This document shows, piece after piece, positions 2,277 through 36,577 of a DNA stretch of 64,000 bases (the stretch's first letter is position 1; the number at the start of each line of letters is the position of its first letter). The position numbers were made by a program, and so were the translations under genes. This DNA comes from Craspedostauros australis (Eukaryota; Bacillariophyta; Bacillariophyceae; Mastogloiales; Achnanthaceae), in assembly GCA_026770025.1 (NCBI GenBank), contig JAMXDE010000034.1, positions 620,001 to 684,000 on the forward strand. The letters are read 5' to 3'. The notes below the pieces were generated by a model. That model did not search any database. It was given only the letters and a program-made list of their open reading frames with translations, and was not told the DNA's origin.

Positions 2277-4127
2277 ATGACAACACGCGAACGCAGACAT
2301 CACAGGAGGCTCCGACATGCCGATACTGCGAGAAGCAAGCAAGGTGGCCGTTCGAAGCGCCAAGTGCTGATTCTGTCGGTCGCCTGCGCCATTGTCGTCG
2401 CCTCATGGTGGCTGAATCGTCGTTTACTCGGGACGTTTGATGTTGGGGTGTCCAAGCGGGAAAGCGGTGTGCCACGTCAACACGCTGTTGGCGTTGGTGC
2501 AAGTGGTGGCGATTTGAAGAAACAAAAACAAGAGGGTCTGCCAACACGAGAGCCAGAGCGACGGCAAAAGCTCGCTTCGCAACATGATCAAGGGGACGGG
2601 AACCATGACAATGATGCAGTCGCACTCCATGGAACGAACGCACAACCATTGCCGACAACGGCATCATCATCGCATTTGTCGCCACAGAATGGTTCCGCTC
2701 AGACTACGAGTGAGAGGCACCACATGATCTTCTCCAGCAGCTGCGGGAATAAGCAGGATTGGCAAGCGTATCTGTTTTTCTTCCAAGCGAAGCATGTCCA
2801 ACAACCTGGATCCGTCACGAGGATCGTCTCCGGTTGCACTGAGACCGAGCAAAAGACTCTGCAAGCCAAGTTCGAGAAGGAGATTGCCATCATGTCGACC
2901 GAATTCCACATCCATTTCACACCACCGCTCCATCTTCACCAGGATGGCAAGGCCGAGAAGAACTGGGAGGATACGAAGTACTGGAACAAACCATTCGGTG
3001 CCAAGCATTGGCTCGAGGCGACGTTCGGATACAGCGAGGACACCCGTGAGACCGCTCATGATCATGACATTGTTATCTTGGTAGATCCCGACATGCTCTT
3101 GCAACGACCGATCGTCAATGACTTTCGTAACATCGATCCCCAATTCTGGTTGGATACCCACGTGGAAAGGCCGAATGATATTGTGGTGTCCATGGGCAAT
3201 CCTGTCGGTCAGACGTATGCCTTCGGCGATGATTGGTTCGTCCAAGCCAGCAAGAATATGTCTCATGTTGTGGGCGATGCGTCGCCCGTTCATGATCTCA
3301 CGAATGACCATGACTCGATGCGATTCTACGCCGTCGGGCCGCCGTACATTCTCACCCTGCACGTAAGTCTTTGGAAGGAGGTGCAAGCTGTCAGGAAGGT
3401 TGGGCGTCACCTCAACTTTGCGCTCACGTCGTCTCTTTTTGCATTCATGCCTTCGTCTCATCATGCAACGCTCCACCCACGGAATGCAACCATCGAACTG
3501 CGCAACTCTGGATCGTTTCGCCGATCCCCCACCTCGCCCCGTCAGGATATGTACAAGGTCAGCGAGTTATGGTGCGAGTATTTGCCACGTTTGTGGGATA
3601 TCTATTCGCATTTCATGGCGGAGATGTACGCATACTGTCTCGCCACCGCGCATTTGGGATTGAAGCACAATCGAGCGCAAGGCTTGATGATGTCGCATCC
3701 TCAAGCGTGGGGAGAAGGTTGGTACGCTTTGAGGAACGCCACCAAAGGCAGCGTGTGCCAACAAGCCATGGACTTGAGCATAGCCAACCGCCCGCACGTG
3801 CTGCATTACTGCCAGCGGTATTCCATTGGTGAATTCTTCTTTTCCAAGTACCGGACGCATCACCGATTCCTTCAATGCGATCAACCGTTGGTGCGGCTGC
3901 CATCCGTCGATGTCGCCAAGCGCTCCAAGGTGTCGAAGTTCGGTGACGGGACGACCCAGCGGTGGGAGCGTGGCCACCAGATTGGGCACGCGTACGCTGT
4001 TTGCGCGATTTATCCTGCGATGAACAGAGCGGCTCGGTACTTCAAGCAGACGCAATGCGGATCCGATGCCAACTTGAATGAGACGTGGAACTTCTTTGAG
4101 ACTGAATATGTCGAGGAGGATGACTGA
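2277..4127 (+). CDS. Type II membrane O-glycosyltransferase, peptidyl-Ser galactosyl-/Hyp arabinosyltransferase-like
   Basis: Modelled as two exons, 2277-3362 and 3546-4127, giving about 555 residues. The N-terminus is Arg/His-rich and followed by one hydrophobic anchor at about residues 29-47, typical of Golgi type II enzymes. A Ser/Gln/His-rich stem follows to about residue 145. The catalytic region starts IFSSSCGNKQDWQAYLFFFQ and continues with QPGSVTRIVSGCT, YWNKPFGAKHWLE and the metal-binding VDPDMLLQRP (Asp270/Asp272). This order matches the family containing plant peptidyl-serine galactosyltransferase and hydroxyproline arabinosyltransferase, which add sugars to extracellular glycoproteins in the Golgi. 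After the intron, EMYAYCLATAHLGLKHN is also family-like. Which sugar is transferred cannot be read from the sequence. ATG at 2277 is the first methionine ahead of the anchor. Confidence 0.75.
   Translation: MTTRERRHHRRLRHADTARSKQGGRSKRQVLILSVACAIVVASWWLNRRLLGTFDVGVSKRESGVPRQHAVGVGASGGDLKKQKQEGLPTREPERRQKLASQHDQGDGNHDNDAVALHGTNAQPLPTTASSSHLSPQNGSAQTTSERHHMIFSSSCGNKQDWQAYLFFFQAKHVQQPGSVTRIVSGCTETEQKTLQAKFEKEIAIMSTEFHIHFTPPLHLHQDGKAEKNWEDTKYWNKPFGAKHWLEATFGYSEDTRETAHDHDIVILVDPDMLLQRPIVNDFRNIDPQFWLDTHVERPNDIVVSMGNPVGQTYAFGDDWFVQASKNMSHVVGDASPVHDLTNDHDSMRFYAVGPPYILTLHVSLWKEVQAVRKVGRHLNFALTSSLFAFMPSSHHATLHPRNATIELRNSGSFRRSPTSPRQDMYKVSELWCEYLPRLWDIYSHFMAEMYAYCLATAHLGLKHNRAQGLMMSHPQAWGEGWYALRNATKGSVCQQAMDLSIANRPHVLHYCQRYSIGEFFFSKYRTHHRFLQCDQPLVRLPSVDVAKRSKVSKFGDGTTQRWERGHQIGHAYAVCAIYPAMNRAARYFKQTQCGSDANLNETWNFFETEYVEEDD
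3363..3545 (+). other. Predicted intron in the glycosyltransferase gene (183 nt, multiple of three)
   Basis: A GTAAGT donor at 3363 follows YILTLH and a GTCAG acceptor ends at 3545 before DMYKVSELW. Removing it restores the family-like join. The intron is 183 nt and has no stop in frame, so it can be mistaken for coding sequence: its translation is Ser/Arg/His-rich and unlike the flanking domain. Confidence 0.7.
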
Positions 4128-4249
4128 TATGTAGAGCAGAAAAGTTCTCGCATGCCAGCCGCTCATGCTGTTTTGCTATGGTTGCCATCGTTGCCGTTGT
4201 CGTTGGTGGTGTCGACATTGTTAAGATCCAAACAAGTATTTGTTTCAAC

Positions 4250-5317
4250 TTACTTCATGCGCAAGATCTCTGATATCATCTCCTGCGCCTGCCTCATGTA
4301 GCCGCCTCCACACAGTACCTGATGATTCAGAATATGATATAGATTGTAGATAACGCGACGCTGCGCGTGCCCATCCGGCAGCGGCCATTCCGACTCGTAC
4401 CCATCGTAAAAGCTTGGCTCGAAACCACCAAAGAGATACGTGAGCGCAATGTCTGCTTCCCGATCGCCGTAGTAGGCTGCAGGATCAAAGATGACGGGCA
4501 CAACGACGGTGTCATCGTCGTCGTCCTTGCGTTTGCGTTTGCAAAAGCCCTTGTTGCCACCCCAGAGATCACCATGAAGGAGGCTGGCAGGAGGATCGTG
4601 GGACAGCAGCTCCCGTGTCTTGACGCGCAACTCTTGAACCTTCGCGTCCTTCAATCGTGCATTGTTGGTGAGCCGCAGCATGTGCCCCAGCCGATGCTCA
4701 TCCCAAAAGTTCGCCCAATCCTCCTTCCACGGCAGGTTGGGTTGGAAGGTCGCACCGATAGTATTGTCCACGAGAAACCCAAACGCACCATCCGCGCTGC
4801 TGTGACGATGCAGCTGCGCCAACTGGACGCCCAACTCGAATTGATTCTTGGGACCCTTGCAGAATTCCAAATACTCGAAGATGCAAAATGCCTGACCCGT
4901 GAGATCGTGCTGACCAACGGCAATGGGCGTCGGCACCTGGATCGTGTTGGTCTGTGCCATGGTTTGGACGCCAATGTATTCGGCGTGGAGCATGTCGAAC
5001 TTGTTCCGGGCGGACTTGATGAAGTATTTGTCACCCGTTTCTGAATCGAGCACGGCGCTGGTCATAGCGCCACCACCGCCAGACGCACCGCCTCCCGATG
5101 TTGGCACAAGGGTCACCTTTCGCCCCAGAGCGTCTGATGCCGCCTTTGACATGACCTCCATCGTGGAGGCTGCCGCGAGGCTGGATCTTGTATGACGTTC
5201 GACATACGATGTGGCTGGGAATGCGGATGCGAATGCGATAGGTTGTGCTAAAGCAGTGCGTGATAAGAGCAAAGACGGTGCAGATGTGGCCAGCACCAGT
5301 TGGATTAGCAGGCGCAT
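4250..5317 (-). CDS. Fructosamine/ketosamine-3-kinase-like protein, predicted plastid-targeted
   Basis: The 355-residue protein belongs to the fructosamine kinase (APH-like) family, which phosphorylates ketosamines on glycated proteins and thereby reverses glycation. Visible motifs are the ATP-lid region GGGASGGGGAM (about 76-86), YFIKSARNK with the candidate ATP-binding Lys, the catalytic-loop HGDLWGGN (248-255), and IFDPAAYYGDREAD (276-289), which supplies the second metal-binding Asp. An acidic-basic insert (KRKRKDDDDD) follows the catalytic loop. I start at the ATG at 5317 because the protein then opens with a hydrophobic leader ending near Ala24 and an ASAFP motif at 30-34, the bipartite plastid signal of diatoms with cleavage expected before Phe33. 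The open frame extends 96 codons further upstream, but that part has no family features. Targeting is inferred; family membership is solid. Confidence 0.85.
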   Translation of the reverse strand: MRLLIQLVLATSAPSLLLSRTALAQPIAFASAFPATSYVERHTRSSLAAASTMEVMSKAASDALGRKVTLVPTSGGGASGGGGAMTSAVLDSETGDKYFIKSARNKFDMLHAEYIGVQTMAQTNTIQVPTPIAVGQHDLTGQAFCIFEYLEFCKGPKNQFELGVQLAQLHRHSSADGAFGFLVDNTIGATFQPNLPWKEDWANFWDEHRLGHMLRLTNNARLKDAKVQELRVKTRELLSHDPPASLLHGDLWGGNKGFCKRKRKDDDDDTVVVPVIFDPAAYYGDREADIALTYLFGGFEPSFYDGYESEWPLPDGHAQRRVIYNLYHILNHQVLCGGGYMRQAQEMISEILRMK

Positions 5318-8300
5318 CACGGCGCGCTCTCTGCAAGGAGTAGACGCAGCTGATTGGTTGGGGTCATGGAATGGAGATACCTGCTCTTTCATCGGCCATT
5401 CATGGGGGAAGGATCTCTCTGACGTTTGGGATCTTTGGATTTGTGGTCTTCGTTCCTCCTGGAGGTTGCGGTATTGTTGGAAATCGCACCGCAGACTTCG
5501 GTGCGCACAAAAATCCGACGTATGCACGACAGACGACCAATGTCTACCCAAAGTAGACACAAAGTTAGACTTCTGAAAACGCAGTCCTGAGTTTGATTGG
5601 CACAATACTGTACATCGTACTTAGGCACACACTTGGTTGCACTGTTCCAAGTTAAGATCATAATTCCATCGCATGTTCCTCCACCATAAAATCACCTGAA
5701 CTGCTTATTGTAGAGTATACTTGATGGCAAAGAGCATCAATGGCCTCATTCTCGTTGCTACATTCACACTTCTTCCAACAATTGACATCGTTGAATGGAA
5801 TAACAAGCACACCAGTCATTGTGAGATGCCTGCTTTAAGGTTGGCTATTCGTCGGAAACAAGTAATTGAGACACCTATGCGATTCATGATATTGATAGCG
5901 TTGAAGATGTTTGCAATCAGAGTTCTATCTTCGAATGCTGGACATGTAAGGCACCACCCGGATCGGTCAACATTGATCATGGTATTGAATCTACTATAAA
6001 TATGGAACAACTTGTGCTGCATTCGCTCTCTGACATTTGACAAGTGAGCCATTTCGGATGTTTGTCACGGATATTCTCTGCACGTTTTCTCTTTGTTGCC
6101 GCGCGGACGAGATACCAGACTCTCCATACTACATACAATGGAGAAGGGGTGTTGTGACAGACATGCAATACCCTTGCTGCATGCGATTGCCTGGTGATGA
6201 ATTGTATTCCAAATCACAAGATACACGAAGCACAGCAGGTTCCTCTCTATCCCGATACCCCTTTTGTCGCGTATAATAGCTGGCTGTGGTCGCAACAGTT
6301 CGCGGAAGTCACCGATTCACAGGCACACTACATGTTCGTAGATTCCCTGTGGCTTCGACATTGCCGATGTGAGATTGCATGATTACACGACCACATGAGA
6401 AAGGGCGTCTGAACAGGTCTTGTTGCTAACACACACCACATCACACGTAACACACAACGCAAGCGCATCACGTTGTAGTGCCGAACAAACATGTCCGTCA
6501 CAGAATTTGTTCCTTGCTGATGGTCATTGTGTGTGGGCATTGATGGTAGCGGAGATACACGCAATGGAAACAATTGTTGTCACAAGCACCTGTTGTGACC
6601 ATGATAAATGTCTCGTAGTCGTACATCTGCGAACAAAATTCCAACTTAGTACGTCAATGTACAGAAAGACGGTCATTCTTTGTCAACAGAAGTTCGCACA
6701 GCGACCACCACTTCTGTCCGTTACCATCGAACCAGTGTCAAGTTCACGCACGCGTTGTTGGATACTGGCTGTCTGCTGCTTCGTGTTTCTTGGATGTGTG
6801 TGATGTTGGTGTACCGCGCCTTTCCAACACACTGCGTGGGGAAGACGATGTCGTTGCAACATCCGACCAAAGTCGTACCTCCGTCGGATCATGTCATCTC
6901 AACAACCAGCCTACGTCATCTGATGTCTGATCAATGTTTGACCAATGTAAGACCAATGTTACCGTAAAGTATGACATTGCGGCAGCAGGGTTTTTCCATG
7001 TTTCGAAGGCGCAACTTGCCACCCCCCTCTGCGATCACTCAGAATGATTAGTTCGCAACTAGACACATAGAATGACCAAAGGAGGCCTCCCCTATCACGT
7101 AATGGAACTTTTGTTGCCATTAATATTATAGTTATCTCTACAGGGGGTGTCTAAATTGGTGTGACTAGCCTTACTCCTAGCAAAAATGTCAATTACGTCA
7201 TTCACATGTCAGACATACATCATACCAATGTATGATGTTTGTCAGCTGATTGCATACTGACGTCGGATGTTGATCAGCTTGCTGTGCATGCTGGTCCGAC
7301 CAACGTCGTACGACGTCGACTGGACCTCATATCGACATGACTGTTTGCCACAACAACGCGCTTGTGTCTGTCTAGTGCGGAAACATGCCTACATACACAA
7401 CATCAACGAAGCAGCGATGTTCATCATCCTCGCGGTAGCAAACGAGTTGTCCTTGCGTGAGACATGTCCGTTCTGTTCCACACCAAGCAAGCACAACAAT
7501 TAACCATTCACGTCTCGCCACCACCGCAGCGGAGGATTCGCTACTCACAAGGTCGAGCAGAAACTGGCATTCTCTTGCGGTATGACATTCGACGGCAGTC
7601 ACGGCAAACCAACAGAAGTAAAAGTGCTTTATCTTTACGACCATTTGTTTTTTGTTTCTATCAATAGTCATAGGTCAGCAGTGGTGGGCGACCCCTGTTT
7701 GCGCACGTCACTTCGGCGCAGAACGGGGGTTGCTCAGGAAGACCTGAACTGCGCACGTGTCAACGAACTGGGCGCTATCATACCGATACCAGAAAGGGGG
7801 ATGCGCGCAAGATCTATCATCCACAACATCACAAGCAACATCGATTACCAGACAGGTGTATCACCAGGCAACTACATTTGCGGTACGACTGCGAACGACC
7901 ACGAGCAGCACTCCTCTCTCCAACAACGCTGTACTCGAGACACGATCATTCGTATTCTGGCGAAACAGTAGGACGACAGTCATCTCACGAGACACAGCGA
8001 TGAACACGACAGCGCGCTGCTGCCTTTGCAACCACTGTTGTGTGCTTTGCAGTCCTCAGTCGCACAAGATGCTCCGTTCGCCTGTGTTGTTGCCACCTGT
8101 TTACGTGGACAACTCCGCTTCCGCAGGTGATGGCGCTGTGGCGGTCACAGTGACATTCCCCCTACCACTGATGCAATGGCTCCTGCGTGGTTCACTCAAG
8201 AATGATACAAGCATTGTGTGGGCACGGTATGACTTGACATTTCCTCTGTGTTGTGTAAAGACATTTTTGGTCCGGCAAAACCACGGTCCGATTGTATGAC

Positions 8301-22704: not shown

Positions 22705-22819
22705 TCACTCCTCTTCCTCGGCAGTGCCGTCCACCTCAATCACTTCGGATCAATTGGTTCTCACAGAGTTGGTTCTCATTGAGCGGACGAAGTCCATCAG
22801 TGTTGCCCGATCCATATAT
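22705..22819 (-). pseudogene. Detached 3' end of ankyrin-BTB gene A
   Basis: Reverse-strand sequence reads MDRATLMDFVRSMRTNS and on to an acidic VDGTAEEEE end. It is homologous to the last 31 residues of the intact paralogues (MDCATLVNFVRSLSTKS, ending AAEEE). It is separated from the rest of the gene at 32658-34466 by about 9.8 kb of transposon DNA. It also has its own early TGA after RTN, so it has decayed since. Confidence 0.85.
22816..22819. other. Target-site duplication ATAT, copy 1
   Basis: First of three ATAT copies flanking and separating the two transposons. The intact paralogues carry one GTAT at this codon, so deleting both elements and two ATAT copies restores their exact length. 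Confidence 0.8.
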
Positions 22820-23010
22820 CCGTAAGGAATTTTTTGTGTGGGCGTTTTCGTAAGTGGACTGGTGAGTCCACTTACGACCCCCTTGCATTTTTGGGCTCCG
22901 TAAGTGGACTCCTCAATCCAGTTACCGTAAGTGGACTGAGGAGTCCACTTACGACCACAAAAAAAGTAGTCGAATTTCGCTCATCTGAGAAAAGACTACT
23001 TTGACCACTC
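22820..23010. repeat. Left inverted-repeat region of transposon 1
   Basis: It contains palindromes at 22849-22876 and 22926-22953 (12-base arms CGTAAGTGGACT around GGTG or GAGG) plus a degenerate one at 22899-22930. The inner block matches 27200-27249 in inverted orientation. Confidence 0.85.
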
Positions 23011-23279
23011 CACCTCCTCCAAATTGCCTGTTTGTCTCGGTTGCGTTCTGGTTGTGATGGTGGCTTCGTATTTTGTCGCGTTGATTTACGTGTTGTCAAC
23101 GGCATCCTTGGACTTCAATAGACTTGTAAACGGTAACACAACAACTTTGTGTGTAACCACAAGCTTTTTATCGTAATTGCCATCCCCTTCAGTACCATCA
23201 ACGTCTTTCGTCATCAAATGTTCCTCTAATATAACACTGTTTAGGTTCCCACCAGCTTCAAGAAGCTTGTTTCATCGTG

Positions 23280-26200
23280 AGTACTTTGCCTGACATTGCA
23301 TCCCTCATCGAGCACATAGCAGACACCACCAACCACAGCGATAATGACACCAACAGTTCATACGAAGACTAGGTTATTGATACCCCAATTGATCTTGACA
23401 GTGACAACAATGATGACATCCTTGGTGTCCACAATGAAAGCAATGTTGACACCAACAACGTCGATACTGGAGTCTACCCTGTTGGCAATGCTCATGTGGC
23501 CAACGATGCACCAGCAGCCATGCTGATTGCTGCCATTGTTGCTGCCGCCAACATCATCATCCCCAATGATGCTGGATCCCAACATGACAGAGTTTGTGTT
23601 GCTGTGGGAAAGGCCTTGCTTGATGCAAAGGTGCACTACAAGCAGCTCACAAATGAACAAGACAACTCATCAAAATTGGAGGCCAACCTACGAGCCTCTG
23701 TTGTGCAATGGTCAGAGGATGACTGCTCAGCAGAAAGTCTGCACCTGTCTGTGCTCGCGCAACGGAAACAAGCGTCCAGCCAAGACGTTGCAAAACAAGC
23801 TCAGCCTCACCCTGAGCACCCATGGGAAGGCAAATCGCAAGCACTGCACAATGCTGCCAAACCGTTTTCAATGGCTGTGCATGAAGCAGCTTTCAAAGGA
23901 CATGGACATCCTCTACAAGACTGCAATGATGGCTGCATCGACCAATGCAAACCATTCCATCCCATCTCCTAGCCAGAAAAAACAACTGCAGGACCCGCAC
24001 GGCATCGCCCATGAGAAGGGAGTCAGTGTTGCCCAGGCTGCTGCAACCCAGCAGTCAAGTGATGCTGCAGCCAGCATCAACCGCGACTCTGGCAGGTATA
24101 CAATTGCACCTAGTACATGCAGTTGTTGTGCCTCCCCTTCATTCACATCGTCCGCACTGATGTCTGCCATATCAGCTCCTCCTCCATCCACATCTACAAT
24201 GCACAGCACAAGGTCATCTGCTTCTAGATGGACGAGGCCATCTCGACTCACACCAGCATTAAGGTGCACAAAGTCTGTCCACTGCCATCAAGGACAATCT
24301 TTATCTGCTCGGCAGACTTGAACATCTACAACCTCAGTCGCCAGCACTTTCGCTCTCCCTTCATCTCCAGCTCAATCCTCCATATCTTCAAACTTCGGCA
24401 TGCAACACACACCCCACTGAAGAAGCCGCAGCTGCGGCATCTGCGCCCAGGACTTCAGGCTCACCTGCCTCACAATCCACATCGTCCACATTCAACACAC
24501 CAGCCCCTTGCACATCAGGCACACCAGCTTCCGAAACTGCAGCATCGAGCACATCTGCCTCTGGTCCACCCACTACTGCCACATCCGTGTCGAATGCAGG
24601 TGCTTCCAGTAGAGCAGAGGCTGCAGACACATCAGTATTCACTGACACATGCCTACCAGATAATAGCACAGCTGCACGTGAAAATAGAGGTAGCTCAGAG
24701 CACAGCACTCTGTCATCCCTGTCCATCAATGCAGAAGAAGCCACGGCAGCAACAAGGAACAGTAGCTCCAGTCTCAAGACTGATACACAAGGAGAATGCA
24801 ACGAAAATGATGTGCCCAGCAAAGGAAGTGATGGCACCGCATCACCCCAGTTTCTGGAACTGCAGCAATGGCTTGCAAAGACAGCTTTGCAGGCATGGTT
24901 CATGAAGGCCTGGCATGGTAAATCCTATGCCTACACACATCTGGGACACGCAAATGAGGAACTACTGATGAGAGCAGCCATGGACTGCGAACATGTGAGT
25001 GGAATCAACACGACCATCAAGGCCGCATTTCATGCTGGCCTTGTCCAGAAACAGAGCAAAACCTACGTACATGCCTCCATCGATTTCCTGAGCATTGTGG
25101 GGGATCCAACCAATGATGCACACAATGAGGTATTCATTGTAGAGATGAAGACGAGAACAACTCAGAACACAAAACTGAAAGGGGAGTCGCATCGGAAATG
25201 TGGAACATGTGCACAATTTCCCAACTAGCACCCATCTATATCTGAATGCACAAGATGAAACGTATCGCTCACTCTTCCGGGCAGACGAAGAAATGATTCA
25301 GGTGCTTCACCATGCATATGTGTCTATGGTGTGAGAGGAGCTCTGATTGTGATCGGTAAGTGCGCCTTGTGGCAAATGCAACACAGGTTCTCCATGTCCG
25401 AATGGCTTCACTTTGTTCCGTACCAACCTCATCTGTCTTCTCACACAACTGTGGATCCCATTTCCACAACCACTGACTCACATGAACGCTCGATTGGGTG
25501 ACAGGAAACATAAAGGGAAACATCTTGTGCATTGTAGGAACGAGGTTTTCCCTTGGCCTCTTGCATCATTCCGAGAACGTTCCTGAAGATGCATCCCATT
25601 TGCTCTTGGCGTTTGCCTTCCCCGAAATTCCAGAGGCAGATCAGCAATCATCCAAGGTGCTCGATACAGAGTTTCTCAAGCTGAACCCAAAGACGAACAA
25701 GTTCTGCAGGTCAAGCAAGAACCTGCGGAACATCACAGGGGATGGTGTATTCTGTCACAAGAAGACTTGACAAACCCACCACAACATTCTTGCTTCCCAG
25801 TACCTCCAGTGAAGACGTTCCTCCCCTGAACTGTGCTGTATGGAACTGCCTGAATGGTGGGTCTGACATAACAACAAAGCTCATCCAGCAGCACAAAGTG
25901 TCCCCACTCATTGCAACAATCCATTGCATAGCAGTCGGTTGACAGCTACAAACCATGTTTGTGGCACTGCATTGATTGATTCACTACGCAACAGAGGCAC
26001 ACTCCGAGCGTGAAATTGAAGCAGGCCACACTGGCACCATCGAACATTATCCCAGCAGAGTAAATCATGAGTGAAGCCTGAACAAGTTGATGGGATGAAT
26101 CATTGCTCAGTTGCGCAAGTTGCTCGCAGTCATGGCTGCAGACGAAAGAAAGGGCAAGAAACAAAAGGGAGGCACGGAGACAGCGACCCACAACACTGAT

Positions 26201-26930
26201 ATCATTCCAGCAGGCGGGTCAGCCATCGAAGATGGCGAGATGCAGCCACGGGGATGCCCTGAGGACCGTCAAAATAAAAAGGAATGCTTGCCAGCCTATC
26301 CACGATGGATCCCAAGGAGGAGATCAAAATGACCAAATGATTGCGGCAGGGTGAGCATGCAGCAAGGTACTGTCCAGATGTGAGGAGAACCTGTGTTGCC
26401 TGTTCAGTGTGTAGACACTGGATCTGTCCATGATGCAACTTGTATGCTTGCTGATACATCGAAGCTGACAAACAGGAGTGGCTCATGACATGTGGCATTG
26501 CCCTAACCATGGCATTAAGAAACATTGCAAAAGGAGCGGACGCAATCATTGTTCACAACTTATGTCATCGAATTGTGCACAAGGAGCCTGTCGAATGGGT
26601 AGAGAAGGTGAAGGCCCAGCATCAATGAGAGAAGCCACCACAATGAATGCCTTTATCAGCGCAAACACAGATGAGACAACCGCCAAAGCTACAAATGCAG
26701 CAACAGAGCTAGCAAGAGAGGTGAGCAACGAAAGCAATGACAACGCCGACGGTGAAGCCACCACTGCCAAGGCACATCAAACAAACACGGCCACAATAAT
26801 TAGCTCAAGGGTGCCTGTCCTGAATCTGGAAGCAGCAATACAAGCTGCGCACAAGGCAGACGCCGAAGCCAGGATCCAGAGCAGAGATACAGAGGTCATA
26901 ACTCACGGTCTGCATGGAAGGAAGTAGAAA
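23280..26930 (+). pseudogene. Remnant transposase/nuclease gene of transposon 1
   Basis: Pieces in different frames match the neighbouring element's protein. 24842-25228 holds QAWFMKAWHGKSY, then HASIDFLSIVGD and EVFIVEMKTR (the PD-(D/E)XK nuclease core). 25237-25355 holds LYLNAQDETYRSLFR and GALIVIG with the conserved splice donor GGTAAG at 25355-25360. 25840-25940 holds WNCLNGGSDITTKLIQQHKV, the counterpart of the third catalytic Asp region. Frameshifts or stops occur at about 25228 and 25320. I could not find the first two catalytic Asp motifs in 23280-24580, where the frames (23496-23972, 23527-24321) are unrelated or too decayed. The nuclease core is the best-preserved part. Confidence 0.65.
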
Positions 26931-27199
26931 CGATGATATGCAATACGAATTATGTACACCAACGTATTCCACGCACAAGAGGCTCGCAAGGATGACTGTA
27001 GCATAACAGTAGCACAACAGTATCATAACAGTAGAGAAAGACAATATAATGCAGAGTAGAGTCGGTGTTGATTGCTGTTATTGTAGGGATGGAGAGAGTA
27101 TTTGTGTAAGGAAAGAACGGAGGAGGTGCGTCTCAGTGCAAAATCGCTGTGTGCACAAGTTTACACACAACAACACGAAGAATCCAAAAAATGTGACAG

Positions 27200-27394
27200 G
27201 GTGGGGTGGTCGAAGTAGTCTTTTCTCAGATGAGCGAAATTCGACTACTTTTTTTGTAGTCGTAAGTGGACTCCTCAGTCCACTTACGGTAACTGGACTG
27301 AGGAGTCCACTTACGAAACAACAAAAATGATAAGTGGACTGAGGAATCCACTTAGCCGTAAGTGGACTCCTCAGTCCCGAAAAATTCCTTACGG
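27200..27394. repeat. Right inverted-repeat region of transposon 1
   Basis: Palindromes lie at 27261-27288 (perfect 12-base arms around CCTC), 27288-27315, 27330-27354 and 27357-27378. The end reads AATTCCTTACGG. Confidence 0.85.
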
Positions 27395-27398
27395 ATAT
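27395..27398. other. Target-site duplication ATAT, copy 2 (shared)
   Basis: The single ATAT between the two elements serves as right flank of one and left flank of the other, as expected if one inserted into the target duplication of its predecessor. Confidence 0.75.
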
Positions 27399-30300
27399 CC
27401 ATAAAGAGAGATTCTGTCTGGGGAGACCAAAAATGGCCATTTTGGGCTCAGGAGACAAAGTTACCCGGAGGTTCGCCAAAATCCGGTCTGAGGAGACAAT
27501 TTTCAGTTCCACGTGATAAATCTCCACGATAGGATTTTGCGGTCGAATACTTCGACTAAAAGAAACTCTGCCAGCTCTTCGTTCTGACATCTTCTCCTCC
27601 AAGATTTTCTTCATCGTCATTGTTTCTTCGCTTTCCTCCAGATGGCAACAACCCTCCCTCTCCAACCTCCTTGCCTGCTGTGGTTCATTTCATCCCATCA
27701 TCAACCTCGCACCTCCTTGCTTATCATTCGCAGCATCCCCCATACTGCCTTCTTCTTCCAGCTTGCCTTCTTCGATACGTCACCTTCATCATGGCATCTT
27801 CTCTTCCACCTGATGCTCCCAATGCCAATGACGACTTGCCCACAGCTTCCACTCCAGTTGCAACGACCGTCCATGGCACTGTCTCTCCATCCCAGCAGCT
27901 TCATCCCTTTGGACAAGTTTTGGATGATGGAATGGGTGATGCAGGCAAACACACCCATGAAGAAGAACGAGATGGCATCTGTGTCAACAGTGATGACGAG
28001 GGTGCAGTGCCTACAGTGGTGCCTCCAGATCCTGTTGGCGATTTTGGAGTCCAACTGTGCTCGCTTCCTGGCTACAGCCATCGCATCGTCCTCCCTCCAA
28101 AGAAGGGGAGTAGGGAGATCTCTGTGGAGTGGAAGGTGCTCTCAGCCTACGAGCATGCAACAAAAGTGACTGTTGGAGAAGCACACAAGCTCGCTCTCCT
28201 TCATGCAAAGGAAGAGATTCGTTGACTGCGAACAGCTGTCTTGCAGCGCTTCCCCAAGAGTCCTCCTGGGTCTCCACCATACGTGCCAACACCCCATGAC
28301 TTGATCCACGATGTGCTGGGCCCCACATCTCCCATTTTCATCCGTGCATTTGGCCCAAGTGGGCTGGGTTTCTCATATCCTGAGTACATGGAGTTCCTCT
28401 ATGCCATCACATCACAGATGGTGGAAGGCTGCACCGTTCGTCGGCTCTACGATGGCGGCAACACTACCACGCTTCCCAGCTTTCCCACCAGACAGCACTA
28501 CGTCAATCTCTGGGACCGTATTCGACGCAATGGAAACCCTGTCTCTCGGAATGGCCATCGCTTTGTTTGGACCGAATTGGAAAGTGCTTTCAACTTGACG
28601 CTTGAGATTCTTTGTCTTCGTCATCGTTGCCCGAATCGGATCGTCACATTGGATGATGACAAGGTCCATTGCAGCAGCCGTGCAGAGAGCAGCTATCTGC
28701 TTGGCATGAGACATACTCATGCAAATCGTAATGGGTAAGTGACGAACAGCATTGTGTGTTTTGTTGCAGAGGGGTGGCATCTCCATTTCATATTTCAATT
28801 CCTCACCCCAGGTCTCCGTCTCGTTTTGGTCTTCTGCATTCCTTCAGATTAACCCTGAACACTCTTGTCCAGTCTGCTTCTGGACTTGTTGTGGGGTTGG
28901 TTGCTTGCCGAGATGGGTTCGATGACGACACCTATCGGTTGTTCACCCAACTAAAAGAACCAGATGGTTCTTTTCGAAATCTAACCCTCATGACAGATCG
29001 AGGATACAACTGCCACAGCACTACCGCCTTCCTTACTACCAGGGGTGCCAATCTGGAGGGTACACACATGCGAGCTGGATACCTACCATTCACCTTCGGC
29101 CCATCCATTGGCAAGGGTGCACTCCAGATGAATATTGGGAGGAAGGGGCCAAGGATGGTGCATAGCGCTGTCACCAACAGCATTGGCAAACGACAATTGA
29201 CATGCTATGGATACCGACTTAACGAACAAACTGTACTTGCACTCTCCACAAGATCGAGTGGCTTCGAGTGGGACCTCACCCTCAGCAACGCCAGTGACCA
29301 ACAAAAGTACCAAGACATGGTGGAGAACAAGCATGGGAACAATCAAAGATCCCCACACTACCCACACTTCTTCCAAACATTCACTGTCAATCCAACACGA
29401 TCGTCGGCAGTCAGAGCTGCCATATCCCAAACTCCCCTTGGCACAACCGGTGTTGTGGCTGCCGCATCCAAGAATGTCAAACAGCGTTGGGCAGATATGG
29501 TGTGGGATCTGCCTGTGGATGGACTCACCTGTGGCCAGGGTGACCATCTGTGGTTCGTCCACCGCCGCTTCGCGTTCACGAGCACCTCCACCTACAGCAT
29601 GATACAGAAGGTGCTTGAAAGCGGAGAGTGGTGCAACACCGACAATGCCACCATATTCAATCAAACTGCATGGGAGTGCATTGGCCGCTACTTGGGATAT
29701 GATGTGCTTGGTCGGAAGGCGAAGTACCACAATGCGTTGCAAGCAGAAAAAGCGAGATTGCGCGCACTTGATTTATACTCCAAACTCACAACTCCCACCT
29801 TCGATTCCCGTCATGTTGAAATTGCACTTCTCTCCTCTCTCCGTGACAACGCCCCTGAAGAGGATGCCTTCCCTGACAAAGACTTCATCGAACTCATGGT
29901 TATGTTCTACCGCAGCAAGGCCCAGCGAAGCAGAGCCACACGATGCAAAATGCTCCGCACCATCCTCGCTGATGACGACAAGGTTCGACGGCGATTCGTG
30001 GCCATCAGCGACGCCTCCCTCAAGAAAGACCTCAAGGCTCGTCTCCCCAAAACCAATGTGACAAAAATGCCACGAGAGAAGGTTGTGGAGAGATTGGTTG
30101 CCCTGGGGATGAAGGAGATCGAGCAGGAGCCCGACCATCCATCCAGTTTCCAGGCGGGAAGCACCACTTCAGAGTGGATGCACAAGCTTGACCACGACCT
30201 CACAACTCTCATGTTACAATCGTGGTTCATGAAGTCGGTTCGGGGCAAGGCCGGAAAGCTCGCCAAGCTGGGCCACAAAAACGAAGCTCCCCTCATGAAG

Positions 30301-32663
30301 CAGGCCCTCCACTGTGTTGGAGTGGGCGGCGAGGGAAGGCAAGTGAAGGCGACGTACCAAGTGGGGGTGGTGCGAAACACCGATGCACCGTACGCCCGCG
30401 CCTCCGTCGACTTCCTCGCGATCGTCGGTGATCCAGAGGACGACAGCGACGATGAAGTCTTTGTTGTGGAGATCAAGACTCGGGCAACGACAGACACAGA
30501 AGATCTCGAAAGACGGCACCAGCGGAAGGCCGATTGGGAGCATGGGACAGAGGGAAAGAGCCATGTGTTCGTGGATCTCCAAGACGACAAGTGGAGGGCA
30601 TTATTCGAAAAGAAATCAGAGATGATTCAACTGCTTCATCATGCCTTCGTCTTTGGGGTGACAGGTGCAATGATTGTAATTGGTACGTTCAAGCATGAAA
30701 TGGATGGAGCTCCTGCCATGAATTTCGAAAGTCGATTCGTGGTGCTCACTCAAACTGTTCTTGCGTTTCTCCTCTGATCCACTCGATCCCACCTCCTCCT
30801 ACCATCAGGTGATGCAACCGCTAACACCATAAGATCAATATCCACACAATTCAAACCTGATCTACTTCAATCATATGGAATTGTGCTACAAAATCTGTAT
30901 GAGCTGAAGTTGGAGTTTGCATACGCGGACTCCGCTGCTGCATCCCGCGAGGCAGCGTCAGGCAAGACCCTGCGAAAGCATCTGAATTCGAAACGCAACC
31001 CCCACAGGGGCTCAACCGGGGGGCGACACATTGCGGCATTGACAGAAGAGGATGTATTCCACCAATTGATGATATGGAAGGCATGCCAGGAACTACCAAT
31101 GCCGGTGCCAAAGGTTCACACCTTGGTTCCATCGTTTGTAGCTCGTTGGAATTCATTCAAGGGCGGCTCCGATTTAATCACCAGAATGGTGAGGCAGCAC
31201 AAGGTGCAGCCGCCATTCGCAACCTTCCAATGCCAAGCTGTGGTACGGATTGTGGAAGTCATCCTTCTGTTTCTGCACAAGCTAATGCACTACTGTTGCA
31301 CAGACGATATCCACACAAACAAAGACCTGGAGAACGCAACGGTGCTGCAGACCTACCGTGACATGCTGAATCATCGCAGCAGTGTTGCTGATTCGTTGGA
31401 AACATTGCGAAGGGCATTCGGAGTCATCGTCGCCCAAGCCGCTGGCAGCAACAGAGAAGCAGGTGATGACAGCGAATGCGCAAACTGGTTTATTCAGGGA
31501 GCAATCAACAACACAGGAGACACAGATTCGGATACAGACAATCAAATCTACGATGGTAGACCAACTGTTGAAGGCGAGGAGAGGGACGGAAAGAGCATCC
31601 GGAACCTGCTGTCTGGGAATCCAGCTGCCCCAACACCCGCCATGGCTGCGCTCGAACGACGTCTCCGCACGGGCAGCCATGAGCCCATCTTTTGTGAAAA
31701 CGTGAAGAAACCCTGCGTCGTATGTGGGGTTGTAACGAAATGGATGTGCATGCAGTGTCACTTTTTCGCCTGCGTGCCTCCCACTGCAAATCACAAGAGA
31801 TGGGGAGTTGCAAATGGAGTGCATACCAGCATTTCAATGTCAAATCTACGAAAGAAGGCAAACGAACGAATCATTGCAAGCAACACATGTTTCCGAATGC
31901 TCCACGGAAGCAACAGATCATGGACAAGGAAGACCAAGGCGGATTACACTGAGTGGAGTGCGAAGCAACCAGACAGGAAAGGAGGGAAGCGCAAGACTCC
32001 ATCAGCAGTGCAAACAAGCAAAGATATCCAATCGAGCCAAGGAAGGAAACGAGCGAAACCCTCATCCCAGACACCTGCTGAGACTTCACCAGCACCACAG
32101 AGACGGCGGACGCGCTCGGAGACAACTCCGCAACGACCGCGAACGCGCGCAGCAGCTCAACAAGGAAAGTACAGCCATGGGAATGGGTCGAGATGTAACA
32201 TATAGCAAAGTAATAACACACAAACGTCCATCAAATACGGGGTGGTGTATCGTTCCTGTGAAGAGGCGTGGTCACAAATCATTGTGATGCAAGAGGAAGA
32301 ACGCTGCGGAACGATCATGTCCTGTGAAGAGCGTGGAGGACATGGATAAGCATGCAACGAACATATGTATACGAAGAACTGTGATGAGATGCAAGTGGCT
32401 CAATGCATCCAGGAGAAGCATTGAGCCATAGTAAATAGGAGGGCATGCCAGGATATTGTGAGAAATCGGAAAAAACGATATGAGGGGGGAAAAAAGTGAG
32501 CGCGAACAAATAGTTTTAGTCGAGGTGGTCGAAGAAAATGCCATCGCGATAAAACGTCGCGTTGCTTGATTTTGGTCTGAGGAGACCAATTTTGGCACCC
32601 CTCGAATCCGCTTGGTCTCCTGAGACAATTTTGGACTTTTATCGTGGACGAATTTCTTTATGG
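27399..32663. mobile_element. DNA transposon 2 (piggyBac-like with nuclease domain, 5.3 kb)
   Basis: The ends are CCATAAAGA and its complement, flanked by ATAT on both sides. Subterminal repeats built on GGTCTGAGGAGAC and GGTCTCCTGAGAC, followed by AATTTT, occur near both ends (about 27430-27512 and 32573-32635). One long plus-strand gene fills the interior. It sits inside the last exon of ankyrin-BTB gene A. Superfamily assignment rests on the CC ends, the 4-base target duplication, the three spaced Asp motifs and the Cys-rich C-terminus of the encoded protein. Confidence 0.8.
27791..32205 (+). CDS. PiggyBac-like DDE transposase with embedded PD-(D/E)XK nuclease domain and zinc ribbon
   Basis: Three exons, 27791-28734, 28812-30682 and 30809-32205, keep frame across GTAAGT/CCCCAG and GTACGT/CATCAG introns; total 1,404 codons including one in-frame TGA at 28223-28225. 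In order: an acidic N-terminus; RIVTLDDDKVH (Asp288-290); LMTDRGYNCHSTTAFLTTRG (Asp377) with GTHMR after it; a linker; VDFLAIVGD (Asp848) and EVFVVEIKTR (Glu868, Lys870), the PD-(D/E)XK core; WNSFKGGSDLITRMV (Asp1060); a zinc ribbon with Cys1241, 1244, 1252, 1255 and 1260; a basic tail. The three Asp contexts match piggyBac DDE positions in order and wording (DN...GT.R and MGGVD in the family). The nuclease between the second and third Asp is the unusual part. The TGA may inactivate this copy. The first methionine (MASSLPPDAP) is a guess. Confidence 0.65.
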
Positions 32664-34466
32664 ATATGAATCCACTTGTTCTGTACCCTTGTCCTCATCT
32701 ATGACCTTGTACAGCTCCATCATGGACATGCCACTGTACTCATCATCAAGTCCGTCACTCTCCATTCTACCATGGCAGAGGTCATGAATGACTCCCATTA
32801 GGTGAGGGTGATGAAATAGCTGCTTAGAATCTGGATGAGTGAACAATTTGTTCTCATTTTCAGCTGCCATCCTCATTGCGGTATCCTTCAACACCACGCA
32901 GTTGTGTTGATCGGCGAATATCAACACATCTATCATGGTGTCCTCTGTGAGATGCTTGCGGGCCAACTCTGCTTCAAGAGCAAGCTTGAGTCGCCAGAAG
33001 CCGAACTCGTTGGCCACAAGGATGAGCTGTTGCAGATCGTCCTGTCCATTGAGGGTGGGAGTTGGCTGGTGAGAGGCATTTGTATCGTGGTGTGAGTTGG
33101 AGTGAGCGCCGATGTGAGCGCTGACGTGAGCAGCAGCGTTGTCATTATGAGCGCTGTCATTGAAGGATATCTCGCCTGAGTAGATGCATTGGAGGACATA
33201 TCGGACGTGTTTTGGTTGAAGGTTGGGGAGAGGGATAGTTGTTTCGATGGGGACCGCGCCGTCTTCGGTGTCATCATTCGCGTGCTGATGTTGGATTCCT
33301 TTGTTGATCAGTGTCTGAATGGATGGGACAGTGACCCTGAGGACTCCGGAGTTTGCCTTGATTGCTTGTTGTTCGTCCCCTTGTCCACACAGGAAGGTAA
33401 TGTCTGCGATGGCCTCAGCACGAATAGCGACGAGACGATCTTGGTCGATGCTGATCTTGAGATGTTGTTTCAGCTGCTGTTTCAGCTGTTCTTTCTCCTG
33501 TTGACTTTTCGAGAGCATGTGTTGCATTTCTTCCTTCTGCTGTTCCAACTGTTGTTCCAACTGCTGTTTCAGTTGTTCGTTCTCCTGCTCCTTCTGTGTC
33601 TTCTCTTCCTCCTCTCGTCCCAACTGCTGTTTCAGTTGTTCATTCTCTTGCTCCTTCCGTTCCAACTGCCGTTTCAGTTGTTCATTCTCTTGCTCCTTCT
33701 GCTTCTTCTCTTCCTCCTCTCGTTCCAACTGCTGTTTCAGTTGTTCATTCTCTTCCTCCTTCTGTGTCTTCTCTTCCTCCTTCCATTTCAACTGCTGTTT
33801 CAGTTGTTCATTCTCCTGCTCATTCTCTTTCAACTGCTGCTGCAGTTGTGGGTTGCAGCGACTCAGATGTGTGAGACGGTTTATCTTGATTTGAAGTGTT
33901 GCATCGATCATATCGAGGGGCGTTTTGTTGTCTTTGTTTTGAATGTCGGTATCGGCATTGGCTGATGCAACGAGGTACGCAACACACTCCAGGTGGCCTT
34001 TGGAGCATGCCAGATGAAGGGGAGTGTCACCATCGTTGTTTTTGCAGTTGATGTCCGCCTCACATGATTCGATGAGGTACTTGGCACACTCCAGGTGGCC
34101 GTTGTAGCATGCCAGATGAAGGGGAGTGTCACCATTGTTGTCTTTGCAGTTGATGTCCGCCTCACATGATTCGATGAGGTACTTGGCACACTCCAGGTGG
34201 CCGTTGTAGCATGCGTGATGAAGGGGAGTGGAACCATCGTTGTTTTTGCTGTTGATGTCCGCCTCACATGATTTGATGAGGTACTTGACACACTCCAGCT
34301 GGCCGTTGTAGCATGCCCATTGAAGGGGAGTGAAATCGTGGATGTCTTTGCAGTTGACACCATCTCCTTCATGATGTGTCTTGTTCTGCTTCTTCCACTT
34401 CTTCAACACTGCCAAGTCACCTCTGAAGGAAGCATCAATGAGTTGTGTGTTCGTAACACTCGGCAT
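32658..34466 (-). pseudogene. Ankyrin–coiled-coil–BTB gene A, 3' end cut off by transposon
   Basis: From ATG 34466 (MPSVTNTQLIDASF) the 602-residue product has four 34-residue ankyrin repeats (about 45-180), each with TPLHxAC and LECxKYLI. Then come a partial repeat, a Glu/Gln/Lys coiled coil of ENEQLKQQL units (about 205-335) and a BTB/POZ domain: ADITFLCG, ANSGVLRVTVPS, VRYVLQCIYSGEI, then LQQLILVANEFGFWRLKLAL and MIDVLIFADQHN (about 350-540). BTB proteins usually bring targets to Cul3 ubiquitin ligases; ankyrin repeats would choose the target. The last 31 residues of the paralogues are missing: after DSY the frame enters the transposon end, which reads Pro-stop. A protein may still be made. 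An open extension upstream to 34679 is repeat-derived. Confidence 0.8.
32664..32667. other. Target-site duplication ATAT, copy 3
   Basis: Right-hand ATAT, directly followed by GAATCCACTTGTTC of the ankyrin-BTB coding sequence. Confidence 0.8.
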
Positions 34467-34502
34467 TTTGATAGTGTGGTGGATGGTCGATGGTTGCTGG
34501 AC

Positions 34503-34545
34503 GATAGACGTTGGACGTTGGACGTTGGACGATTTACGTTGGATT
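34503..34545. repeat. TTGGACG heptamer minisatellite
   Basis: Repeated GGACGTT units lie just upstream of the ankyrin-BTB start codon. The arrangement differs between unit A/B and unit C (59676-59726). That changes the reading frame of the upstream extension and argues that translation starts at MPSV. Confidence 0.7.
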
Positions 34546-34679
34546 GGCTGTCGAGGATGTCTGTGGTCGGAGCTGCCTGTGGGAGAGATATCGATGTTTG
34601 TGTATGCAACAGCTTGTATTAGTATTAGTATGAGTATGAGTATGAGTACCATACGCTGTGTGATGAATATGAGTGGCAA

Positions 34680-36577
34680 TTCGATGTCTGTTGTTCACGC
34701 GGTTGAGTATGGTGTTGAGTGGTGTGTGTGTGTTGTTGTCTTGTTCGCATGGTCTCCTCCTTCTGTTTGCCTGTGTTTGTCTCCTCTTGATCAAACGCGT
34801 CTGGTTCGCGCGGATTGGATCTTTCTGTTCCCATCCATCACGAAAATGCGTGCGACCAACAACAAGAAAGAAGCACCACAACAGAGTTCTCGTTTGGCCA
34901 CAATCAACGCAACACCAATCCGAAGCAAACAACGTCAAAGTCTTCGGAAACAGAGAGAGCTGTCATCGTCGCCACCACCGCCGCCACCACCATGTGCACC
35001 ATGGCCCACGCTTGCTTGCGTCATCGTGGCATCTGCAAGACCACTGACCCTCGTCCGCCTGCCATCGCAAGCATCAACTTGAGGTGTGAGCCAATGCCTC
35101 GAACAACCATGAAGCCGCCGATGAAGCCACCAATGTGATTGCCTTCGTTGGTTGCAACCCATCTCATTTGGATTTGGCTGGTTGCCATCCCACCGCATTG
35201 CAACAATCACCATCCGCACAGGCAACAAGAGTCCTCAACATCAAACCAACACCACATTGCGTATTGGGATGAGTTGACACGTTCAGCAATCAACAAGCAG
35301 AGTGATACTGTGCCGCCTCCACTGTTCCTGCCACACGGACCACCAACACACAACACCATGCGCATTCTATCCATAGGCATGAGTGCCGCCGTCTTGGCTC
35401 GTGACTTCCAGAGCATCGATGCTCAACAGAGGTGATCGACAGGAACATCCGCCTCATCAACGAAGTTGGGATCACCACAAAGGAGGACATGTAGGTATAC
35501 GGTATCCATGGGCCATGGATCGCTGACCACGTGCTTCTTGCGCCATATGGAACTCTGTGCCAACCATGATCCGCGATACAGTACTTGCACTCTGCATGGG
35601 GTTGCTTGTTGGTTGGTTGGTTGATTCGTTGGTTTCTTCTGTTGCTCGTCAAACTCTCTGGATGCTTGGACTGCGCTGGCTCGTCGGTTCCTGTCTTTCC
35701 GCCATGCTGGCACTGCTCGCTTCGAAGATTGGAATGGATGGTGACCCTGGCAATTGTTTCTCCAACGGCAAGTGATCGCTCCTCCTCGGACTTGGTAAGG
35801 CTCTCGACTGCAGTGTTGGCACAATGGTGGGAGTGCAACTCCTGGTGAGATGAGGACGATAGCGCGATACGGGACGGTCGATGGAATCGCGTACCAACCA
35901 TGCTCCTCGCGGCTTCTCACCATTTCTCTCTGCCTTGTTCGCCATGTGCTCTTCGTAGATCGTCTCTTCCAGAAACTTGGATCGGCTGGCATCGGCACTA
36001 TCGCTTTGAATCTGCTTGGCAGTGTGACTTGGAGTGGAGTGCTATGTGTGCGAATCCGGCGGCATGGTGACGACCGCACGGCTTGTGATAATGCTGCTGC
36101 CATTCGTCCTTTGTCTGCGCAACGAACCAACAACGATGCTGATGGCAGAGTGCGGATGGAACCACAGATGTCCAATCTGCTCATGAATGGCATCGGCAAC
36201 ATCCTTGTGTGCGTATATACCACAGAGAGCGAACCAGATTAGTCGTAGACAAGGCGGAGGCAGTGTGGGAGCAGTATCCAGCCCTTCAATCTCTTGAAAC
36301 ATCCGGTGCCTTCATCACAGTGTTCTATTGCACAAGCAGATATAGTGTATGCGGTACTGTTCCAAACATACGTAGAGAAGTACAGTTTATTCGTAGGTGT
36401 ATTACATTACAGGGATGTGGATCTACCATACCTCTATGAGTATGATACGAGTACGGAGCGGCCCCTCCATCTCATTCCATCCCATCGTGTCGTGATGCAT
36501 CACGGGGTGGGAGTTTTGGTACCATTCATCAAGGGATGGTGGCACTGAGACGCGCTCTTTCTCCTGACCACTTTCTA
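34680..36577. other. Unassigned stretch of unit A
   Basis: About 1.9 kb between the ankyrin-BTB promoter and the Ser/Arg-rich gene, repeated at 42485-44382 and 59863-61762. Frames exist on both strands, but changes between copies (an extra C after 60155 in unit C, stops gained in A and B) do not favour any one frame. One minus-strand frame at 36042-36302 is listed separately. A promoter for the divergent ankyrin gene is likely at the left end. Confidence 0.4.
36042..36302 (-). pseudogene. Possible gene fragment MFQEIEGL..., unit A
   Basis: The 86-codon frame (MFQEIEGLDTAPTLPPP, then CGIYAHKDVADAIHEQIGH and LWFHPHSAISIV) ends at a TAG where unit C reads on to a 208-codon frame (60862-61488). 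Unit B has the same stop (43847). The high proportion of amino-acid changes between copies suggests weak or no selection, so it may not be a gene. Function unknown. Confidence 0.3.

Follow-up and report, generated by a model that had tools for sequence, protein, structure and literature searches.

A probable piggyBac-related, ATAT-specific transposon in Craspedostauros australis whose transposase appears to embed a lambda-exonuclease-type nuclease

Can one protein hold both a transposase and a nuclease, with the nuclease placed between the transposase's own catalytic residues? The question is raised by a repeated element of Craspedostauros australis (Bacillariophyta) within a stretch of 64,000 nucleotides that we call the window (contig JAMXDE010000034.1, positions 620,001 to 684,000, forward strand; assembly GCA_026770025.1, 74.8 Mb in 90 contigs). 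A preliminary description, made from the sequence alone, had placed a piggyBac-like transposase with an embedded PD-(D/E)XK nuclease at window positions 27399-32663, which is the same element without its terminal ATATs; it becomes 27395-32667 once the flanking ATAT is counted (Table 1). We consider it probable that this is an autonomous cut-and-paste transposon of a piggyBac-related, ATAT-specific lineage, with a DDD transposase (candidate catalytic residues D288, D365 and D1048, hereafter Asp1 to Asp3) and a lambda-exonuclease/YqaJ-type nuclease between Asp2 and Asp3. The transposase with its embedded nuclease is the only protein of the element that we recognised.

Transposase and nuclease are encoded by one gene. 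Its three exons splice into 1,391 codons plus a stop, and all five motif blocks occur in that single frame in the order first proposed: D288-290, D365, E794/D836/E856-x-K858/Q909, D1048, and the ribbon cysteines 1229-1248 with C1287/H1292. Residue numbers after intron 1 are lower by 12 than in the preliminary description, following a correction of that intron: an extent of 28735-28811 was rejected because models L038, L040, L041 and L042, which represent three other subfamilies and are all stop-free (L040 and L041 being 98% alike), join at 28847. A single exon encodes D365 together with the nuclease residues through Q909, so the nuclease is not a separate gene. The window copy carries an in-frame stop at codon 145 (28223-28225, exon 1) and eight of the 12 aligned copies have at least one stop; the other four (L009, L015, L016 and L018) are open throughout the full frame. 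Splice dinucleotides are kept in all 12, including the GT...AG of intron 1.

Beyond the source genome, a protein search returned a single relative, P0001, with 21% identity over 97% of the searched part, and a search with P0001 gave five more with 30-42% identity to it. We take these six proteins (P0001-P0006) to be metagenomic; on a joint alignment their identity to L009 is 19-20%. Each of P0001-P0005 is predicted as one protein holding Asp1, Asp2, nuclease, Asp3 and ribbon, and P0006, which is N-terminally truncated and begins after Asp1, agrees in its catalytic letters from D365 on. A profile search of the protein database gave no match and missed P0001 as well, so that its candidate limit decides the outcome, and none of 94 pattern matches in viral contigs was a relative. 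Together with six models from the source genome (two pairs of them close relatives), the five full-length database proteins make up 11 full-length homologues. The catalytic letters of all motif blocks are invariant in all 11, which argues that the blocks did not arise by chance.

All 11 family-A copies (the family of the window element) with both ends in hand have the boundaries ATAT/CCAT...ATGG/ATAT. When the joined flanks of 12 insertions were searched against the genome and six junction-spanning matches were read, each of these paralogous empty sites (L011 twice, L013 twice, L038 and L042; four insertions, three subfamilies) held a single ATAT, and the duplication is therefore the 4-bp ATAT. 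Other subfamilies, again after ATAT, begin with CCATGG (L038), CCACGAGG (L042) or CCACAAGG (L041). Matches to the subterminal palindrome (at most two mismatches) number six in the window element, all subterminal and with one palindromic site counted on both strands, whereas 300 base shuffles averaged 0.44 matches and never gave more than 4. The layout of three left and two right palindromes is common to the window element, L042, L038 and L040 (L041 has one left and two right), at about 20, about 50 and 75-90 bp from the left end and with right-hand starts about 94 and about 54 bp from the right end. Two subfamilies have palindromes resembling GTCTCAGGAGAC, and another two have palindromes resembling TTGCGTCAGGACGCAA; an additional, internal match with two mismatches occurs in L042.

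Table 1. Features of the window element, in window coordinates
Feature	Position	Strand	Remarks
Whole element, including one ATAT per end	27395..32667	+	one of 12 essentially complete family-A copies of the assembly
Left ATAT target-site duplication	27395..27398	.	also right-hand ATAT of older element B; ATAT on both sides in 11/11 copies with both ends in hand; single ATAT in six empty sites
Left terminal inverted repeat CCATAAAGA	27399..27407	+	
Three left subterminal near-palindromes, GTCTCAGGAGAC-like	27416..27497	+	starts 27416, 27445, 27486
Exon 1	27791..28734	+	N-terminal region and Asp1 triplet; start codon our choice
D288-D290, candidate catalytic Asp1 region	28652..28660	+	
Intron 1	28735..28847	+	position common to models L038, L040, L041, L042
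Exon 2	28848..30682	+	uninterrupted frame with Asp2, a segment of three predicted strands and the bulk of the nuclease
D365, candidate catalytic Asp2 (TDRGY)	28996..28998	+	
Lambda-exonuclease-type nuclease with inserted helical segment	29536..30922	+	residues about 545-965; crosses intron 2; fold modelled on P0001
E856-I-K858, nuclease ExK motif	30469..30477	+	
Intron 2	30683..30808	+	within end of nuclease
Exon 3	30809..32205	+	nuclease end, Asp3, Cys ribbon, basic tail; stop 32203-32205
D1048, candidate catalytic Asp3 (WNSFKGGSD)	31171..31173	+	
Cys ribbon, C-x2-C-x7-C-x2-C-x4-C ... C-x4-H	31714..31905	+	
Two right subterminal near-palindromes	32575..32626	+	starts 32575, 32615
Right terminal inverted repeat TCTTTATGG	32655..32663	+	
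Right ATAT target-site duplication	32664..32667	.	

To assess kinship with piggyBac, gapless windows around Asp1, Asp2 and Asp3 from Trichoplusia ni piggyBac (6x67), piggyBat (9c0f) and one piggyBac protein of the source genome (for Asp2, the latter two only) were slid along the family in two separate sets of five database and four source-genome sequences, with 1000 column shuffles. For the full-length Asp2 (38 aa) and Asp3 (54 aa) windows, the best offset in both sets was D365, D1048 or their counterparts, at scores reached by 0 of 1000 shuffles. The Asp2 surroundings D-x20-GT-x7-P are complete in the window family and partial in the others, and YN-x2-KGGVD around Asp3 in 6x67 corresponds to WN-x2-KGGSD here. 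Asp1 and Asp2 are 77 residues apart in all six source-genome models and 83-94 in P0001-P0005, against 78 between D268 and D346 of piggyBac (PMC7351741). Shared as well are the motif order of a C-terminal CxxC-CxxC-C ribbon, present and invariant through CxxxxH in the 11 homologues (the cross-brace fold of this Cys-rich domain in piggyBac gets no confident model here), a 4-bp AT-only duplication, CC at the ends and palindromic internal repeats. The differences are a spacing from Asp2 to Asp3 of 643-719 residues in full-length homologues (683 in the window family) rather than about 100, the lambda-exonuclease-type domain inside it, ATAT for TTAA, and WN for YN. Within that last pair, the invariant Asn corresponds to piggyBac N440, the residue in contact with A-2 of the hairpin at TTAA (PMC7351741), and the invariant Trp to Y439.

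Several results weigh against this kinship. The Asp1 window score was reached by 78 to 816 of 1000 shuffles, although the DDD itself is invariant, and the shortest Asp2 window (20 residues) ranked its expected site second in the source-genome set. A match of the flanking segments to DDE_Tnp_1_7 (PF13843), which the preliminary description had looked to, was not found by Pfam in the spliced protein, the exons, the homologues or four of the twelve nuclease-excised transposase segments; with three of the twelve nuclease segments also scanned, only a few unrelated families appeared, above E 0.01. Alignment by hhalign with six source-genome piggyBac proteins scored no better than the reversed alignment (15.5 against 15.4 for the transposase segments of 11 sequences, 16.0 against 18.6 for the whole family). 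One PDB profile search gave no match and another three weak ones (E 0.43, 2.1 and 3.7), the last two being PHD-type Peregrin chains over the ribbon. In the structure model of P0001, the RNase-H core (200-404 and 913-967) has a predicted local distance difference test (pLDDT) score below 50 and the three Asp are not seen together; a second model was worse (mean pLDDT 47.2), its RNase-H core again below 50. The Foldseek/VIA rows shown include no DDE transposase, which says little, the transposase part having no confident model. Finally, of the piggyBac hallmarks, a TTAA target and CC[C/T]T ends (PMC2872659), the first is replaced by ATAT and the second agrees only in its first two letters, the termini here being CCAT, CCAC or CCGT.

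These negative profile results and the distinct ends could point instead to a separate DDD superfamily, unrelated to piggyBac, that converged on the Asp2 and Asp3 surroundings and on a 4-bp AT duplication. We regard this as unlikely in view of the Asp2 and Asp3 window matches, the Asp1-Asp2 spacing, and a Cys ribbon and palindromes in piggyBac-like positions. What stands of the piggyBac-like identity first proposed is thus the two windows, the ribbon order and the palindromes; because the profile signals, TTAA and CC[C/T]T are missing, "piggyBac-related" is the safer term than "piggyBac", and we do not file the family in the piggyBac superfamily. Ordinary piggyBac-like elements are abundant in the source genome, which has at least 160 PF13843 matches; none among the matches listed lies on the window element, and many of those listed span positions 104-349 within about 790 nt, leaving no nuclease insertion there.

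The embedded domain was correctly recognised as PD-(D/E)XK, and its type can be narrowed to lambda-exonuclease/YqaJ, a fold found on the modelled homologue P0001. Its residues run Q545, W550, R554 and S560, followed by the predicted active-site set E794, D836, E856-x-K858 and Q909. It differs from lambda exonuclease, YqaJ and LHK-Exo in being embedded in a transposase and in a long helical insert (about P0001 458-680). In the P0001 nuclease region pLDDT is mostly 60-90. Counting against the assignment, it falls below 50 at 439-453 and 674-694, and Foldseek gave no match at E≤0.001 in either library; Pfam recovered no YqaJ or other nuclease family in the three nuclease segments scanned.

Purifying selection has kept both enzyme parts. 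Between two family-A sub-lineages (20 non-independent pairs from nine of the 12 copies, residues 457-539 and 701-759 left out of the scoring), the ratio of nonsynonymous to synonymous substitution rates (dN/dS) was 0.15 for Asp1-Asp2, 0.20 for the Asp3 region, 0.28 for the ribbon (up to 1.08 in single pairs, on few changes) and 0.78 for the linker, with 0.30 in the first part of the nuclease (540-700) and 0.16 in its core (760-965). The inserted domain might be catalytically dead, its sole role being to bind DNA or to act as a structural insertion domain, as loops of the piggyBac insertion domain line the DNA channel (PMC7351741). This seems quite improbable, since none of the 11 homologues departs from E794, D836, E856-x-K858 or Q909 and the nuclease core is constrained like the transposase core. 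Residues and selection support the earlier proposal of two putative DNA-cutting centres. That the nuclease occupies the insertion-domain position of piggyBac is only suggested: the piggyBac insertion domain is three-stranded (PMC7351741), and three strands are predicted, at low confidence, ahead of the nuclease in both models.

Across the 11 homologues, the invariant acids (window-family numbers) are E70, E142, D288-290, D337, D365 and D1048 outside the nuclease and D600, E794, D836, E851, E856, E869, E906 and D928 in its region. Between D365 and the nuclease there is no invariant-acid column; the sole always-acidic column (L009 457) is a D/E mixture beside an invariant Trp. D1048, which follows the nuclease, is therefore the expected third catalytic acid, and within one protein the nuclease comes after the second Asp and before the leading candidate for the third, as the preliminary description had it. 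A KolobokE-like layout would instead put all three acids before the nuclease, with the nuclease following the transposase and KGGSD a conserved non-catalytic helix. KolobokE does share a 4-bp duplication (PMC9587614), but we give this layout very little credence: besides the absence of an invariant acid, the piggyBac Asp3 window picks D1048 as the best of all offsets, and the marks of Kolobok and KolobokE are 5'-RR termini (PMC9587614), TTAA and C/DxxH, against 5'-CC and ATAT here and a stretch from D365 to the nuclease in which the 11 homologues share no invariant C/DxxH. It is almost inconceivable that we are looking at two neighbouring genes or an artefact of assembly or gene model, for which the in-frame stop of the window copy and the need for two introns would speak, given the shared exon 2, the splice sites kept in 12 of 12 copies, the four open copies and the five database homologues, each predicted as one protein across all blocks.

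Other elements combine a transposase with a nuclease. KolobokP elements unite a DDD/E transposase with a nuclease of the His-Me finger type and have long terminal direct repeats (PMC9587614). ISL2EU of the PHIS superfamily pairs a transposase with a YqaJ exonuclease in two separate open reading frames, the transposase bearing THAP/HTH (PMC4482050), in agreement with the separate proteins named in the preliminary description; here one frame holds both. Like that description, which knew of no piggyBac with this layout, we did not find an earlier account of an exonuclease built between transposase catalytic residues in the open-access literature (titles and visible abstracts, Repbase reports being outside this scope).

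In the piggyBac model, excision proceeds via end hairpins, 4-nt overhangs permit seamless repair, and joining occurs at an unpaired 4-bp target (PMC7351741); the same chemistry could serve ATAT, which is also self-complementary. By analogy with the family, the RNase-H-like core would cut and join the ends at ATAT. The piggyBac ribbon binds TGCGT/ACGCA (PMC8086355) and dimerises on a palindromic internal repeat (PMC7351741); the palindrome layout here fits that pattern, making ribbon binding plausible, and we infer that the Cys ribbon would dock on the subterminal palindromes. In the least certain step, the nuclease would resect the broken donor ends: removal of 5' ends at the donor break by a lambda-type exonuclease would block seamless rejoining, and the gap would be pushed into homology-directed repair from a sister copy, restoring the element and making cut-and-paste copy-increasing. 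Donor-end resection is a tentative assignment, less likely than not, and the main alternative is end or hairpin processing before integration.

Family A has been mobile recently. A 381-base nuclease query gave 34 matches in the assembly, 14 of them whole-query at 87-100%, and the family-A copies fetched align across 27395-32667. The 12 essentially complete ones (the window copy, L009-L013 and L015-L020) are 95.2-100% identical when aligned; L012 has its left tip beyond the fetched stretch and an insertion of about 610 bp inside, and L014 and L021, cut by contig ends, were omitted. L016 and L018 differ by one substitution and no gaps while their flanks are unlike each other, hence the conclusion of recent movement.

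Internally deleted derivatives of family A were found at L027 (one), L028 (two), L043 (one) and 10 more places. At these 14 places the match to the nuclease query stops at 30389, and the right-hand piece is also present in 12 of them. Window positions 30390-32086 are gone, with CACC at both breakpoints (junction aligned in L027 and L028); Asp1 and Asp2 are retained, whereas the part of the nuclease that starts with D836 is lost along with Asp3 and the ribbon. All three derivatives with both ends read have ATAT at both. Such derivatives are as expected of aborted gap repair, a compatible but weak indication of donor-end resection.

Next to the window element lies an older one, element B (window 22816-27398; also L025 2639-6277 and L026 2475-6111), with a related nuclease, KGGSD and Cys ribbon, ends of ATAT followed by CCGTAAGGAATTTTT, long palindromes and no recognisable Asp1/Asp2 part; its right-hand ATAT is the exact landing site of the window element. 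L025 and L026 were rejected as a bridge to ordinary piggyBac, the PF13843 match near L025 lying outside the repeated unit 2639-6277. In L039, a member of the L040/L041 subfamily, other sequence after 5549, possibly another insertion, breaks the third exon, and L023 (C8:1130500-1139000) is one more relative, its DNA 64-65% similar to the parts for the nuclease and Asp3. On the other side, an ankyrin-repeat gene with internal tandem repeats adjoins the element (32658-34694, minus strand), and repeated stretches similar to it occur at about 41.0-42.3 kb and 58.0-59.6 kb of the window.

An exonuclease between catalytic residues could change how such elements multiply. From its position one would expect physical coupling of its action to transposition, so that the question can be tested directly, and cell assays are realistic because there are copies with an open frame and signs of recent mobility. 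The lineage is also a natural test of piggyBac target choice, TTAA and ATAT sharing the central TA, with the Asn kept and Tyr replaced by Trp. It is possible, though we would not yet favour it, that these eukaryotic DDD transposons form a new lineage at the level of a superfamily, its active site split by a working lambda-type exonuclease, in which excision, donor resection and copy gain by recombination would act in series and TTAA would have been re-targeted to ATAT with the central TA kept.

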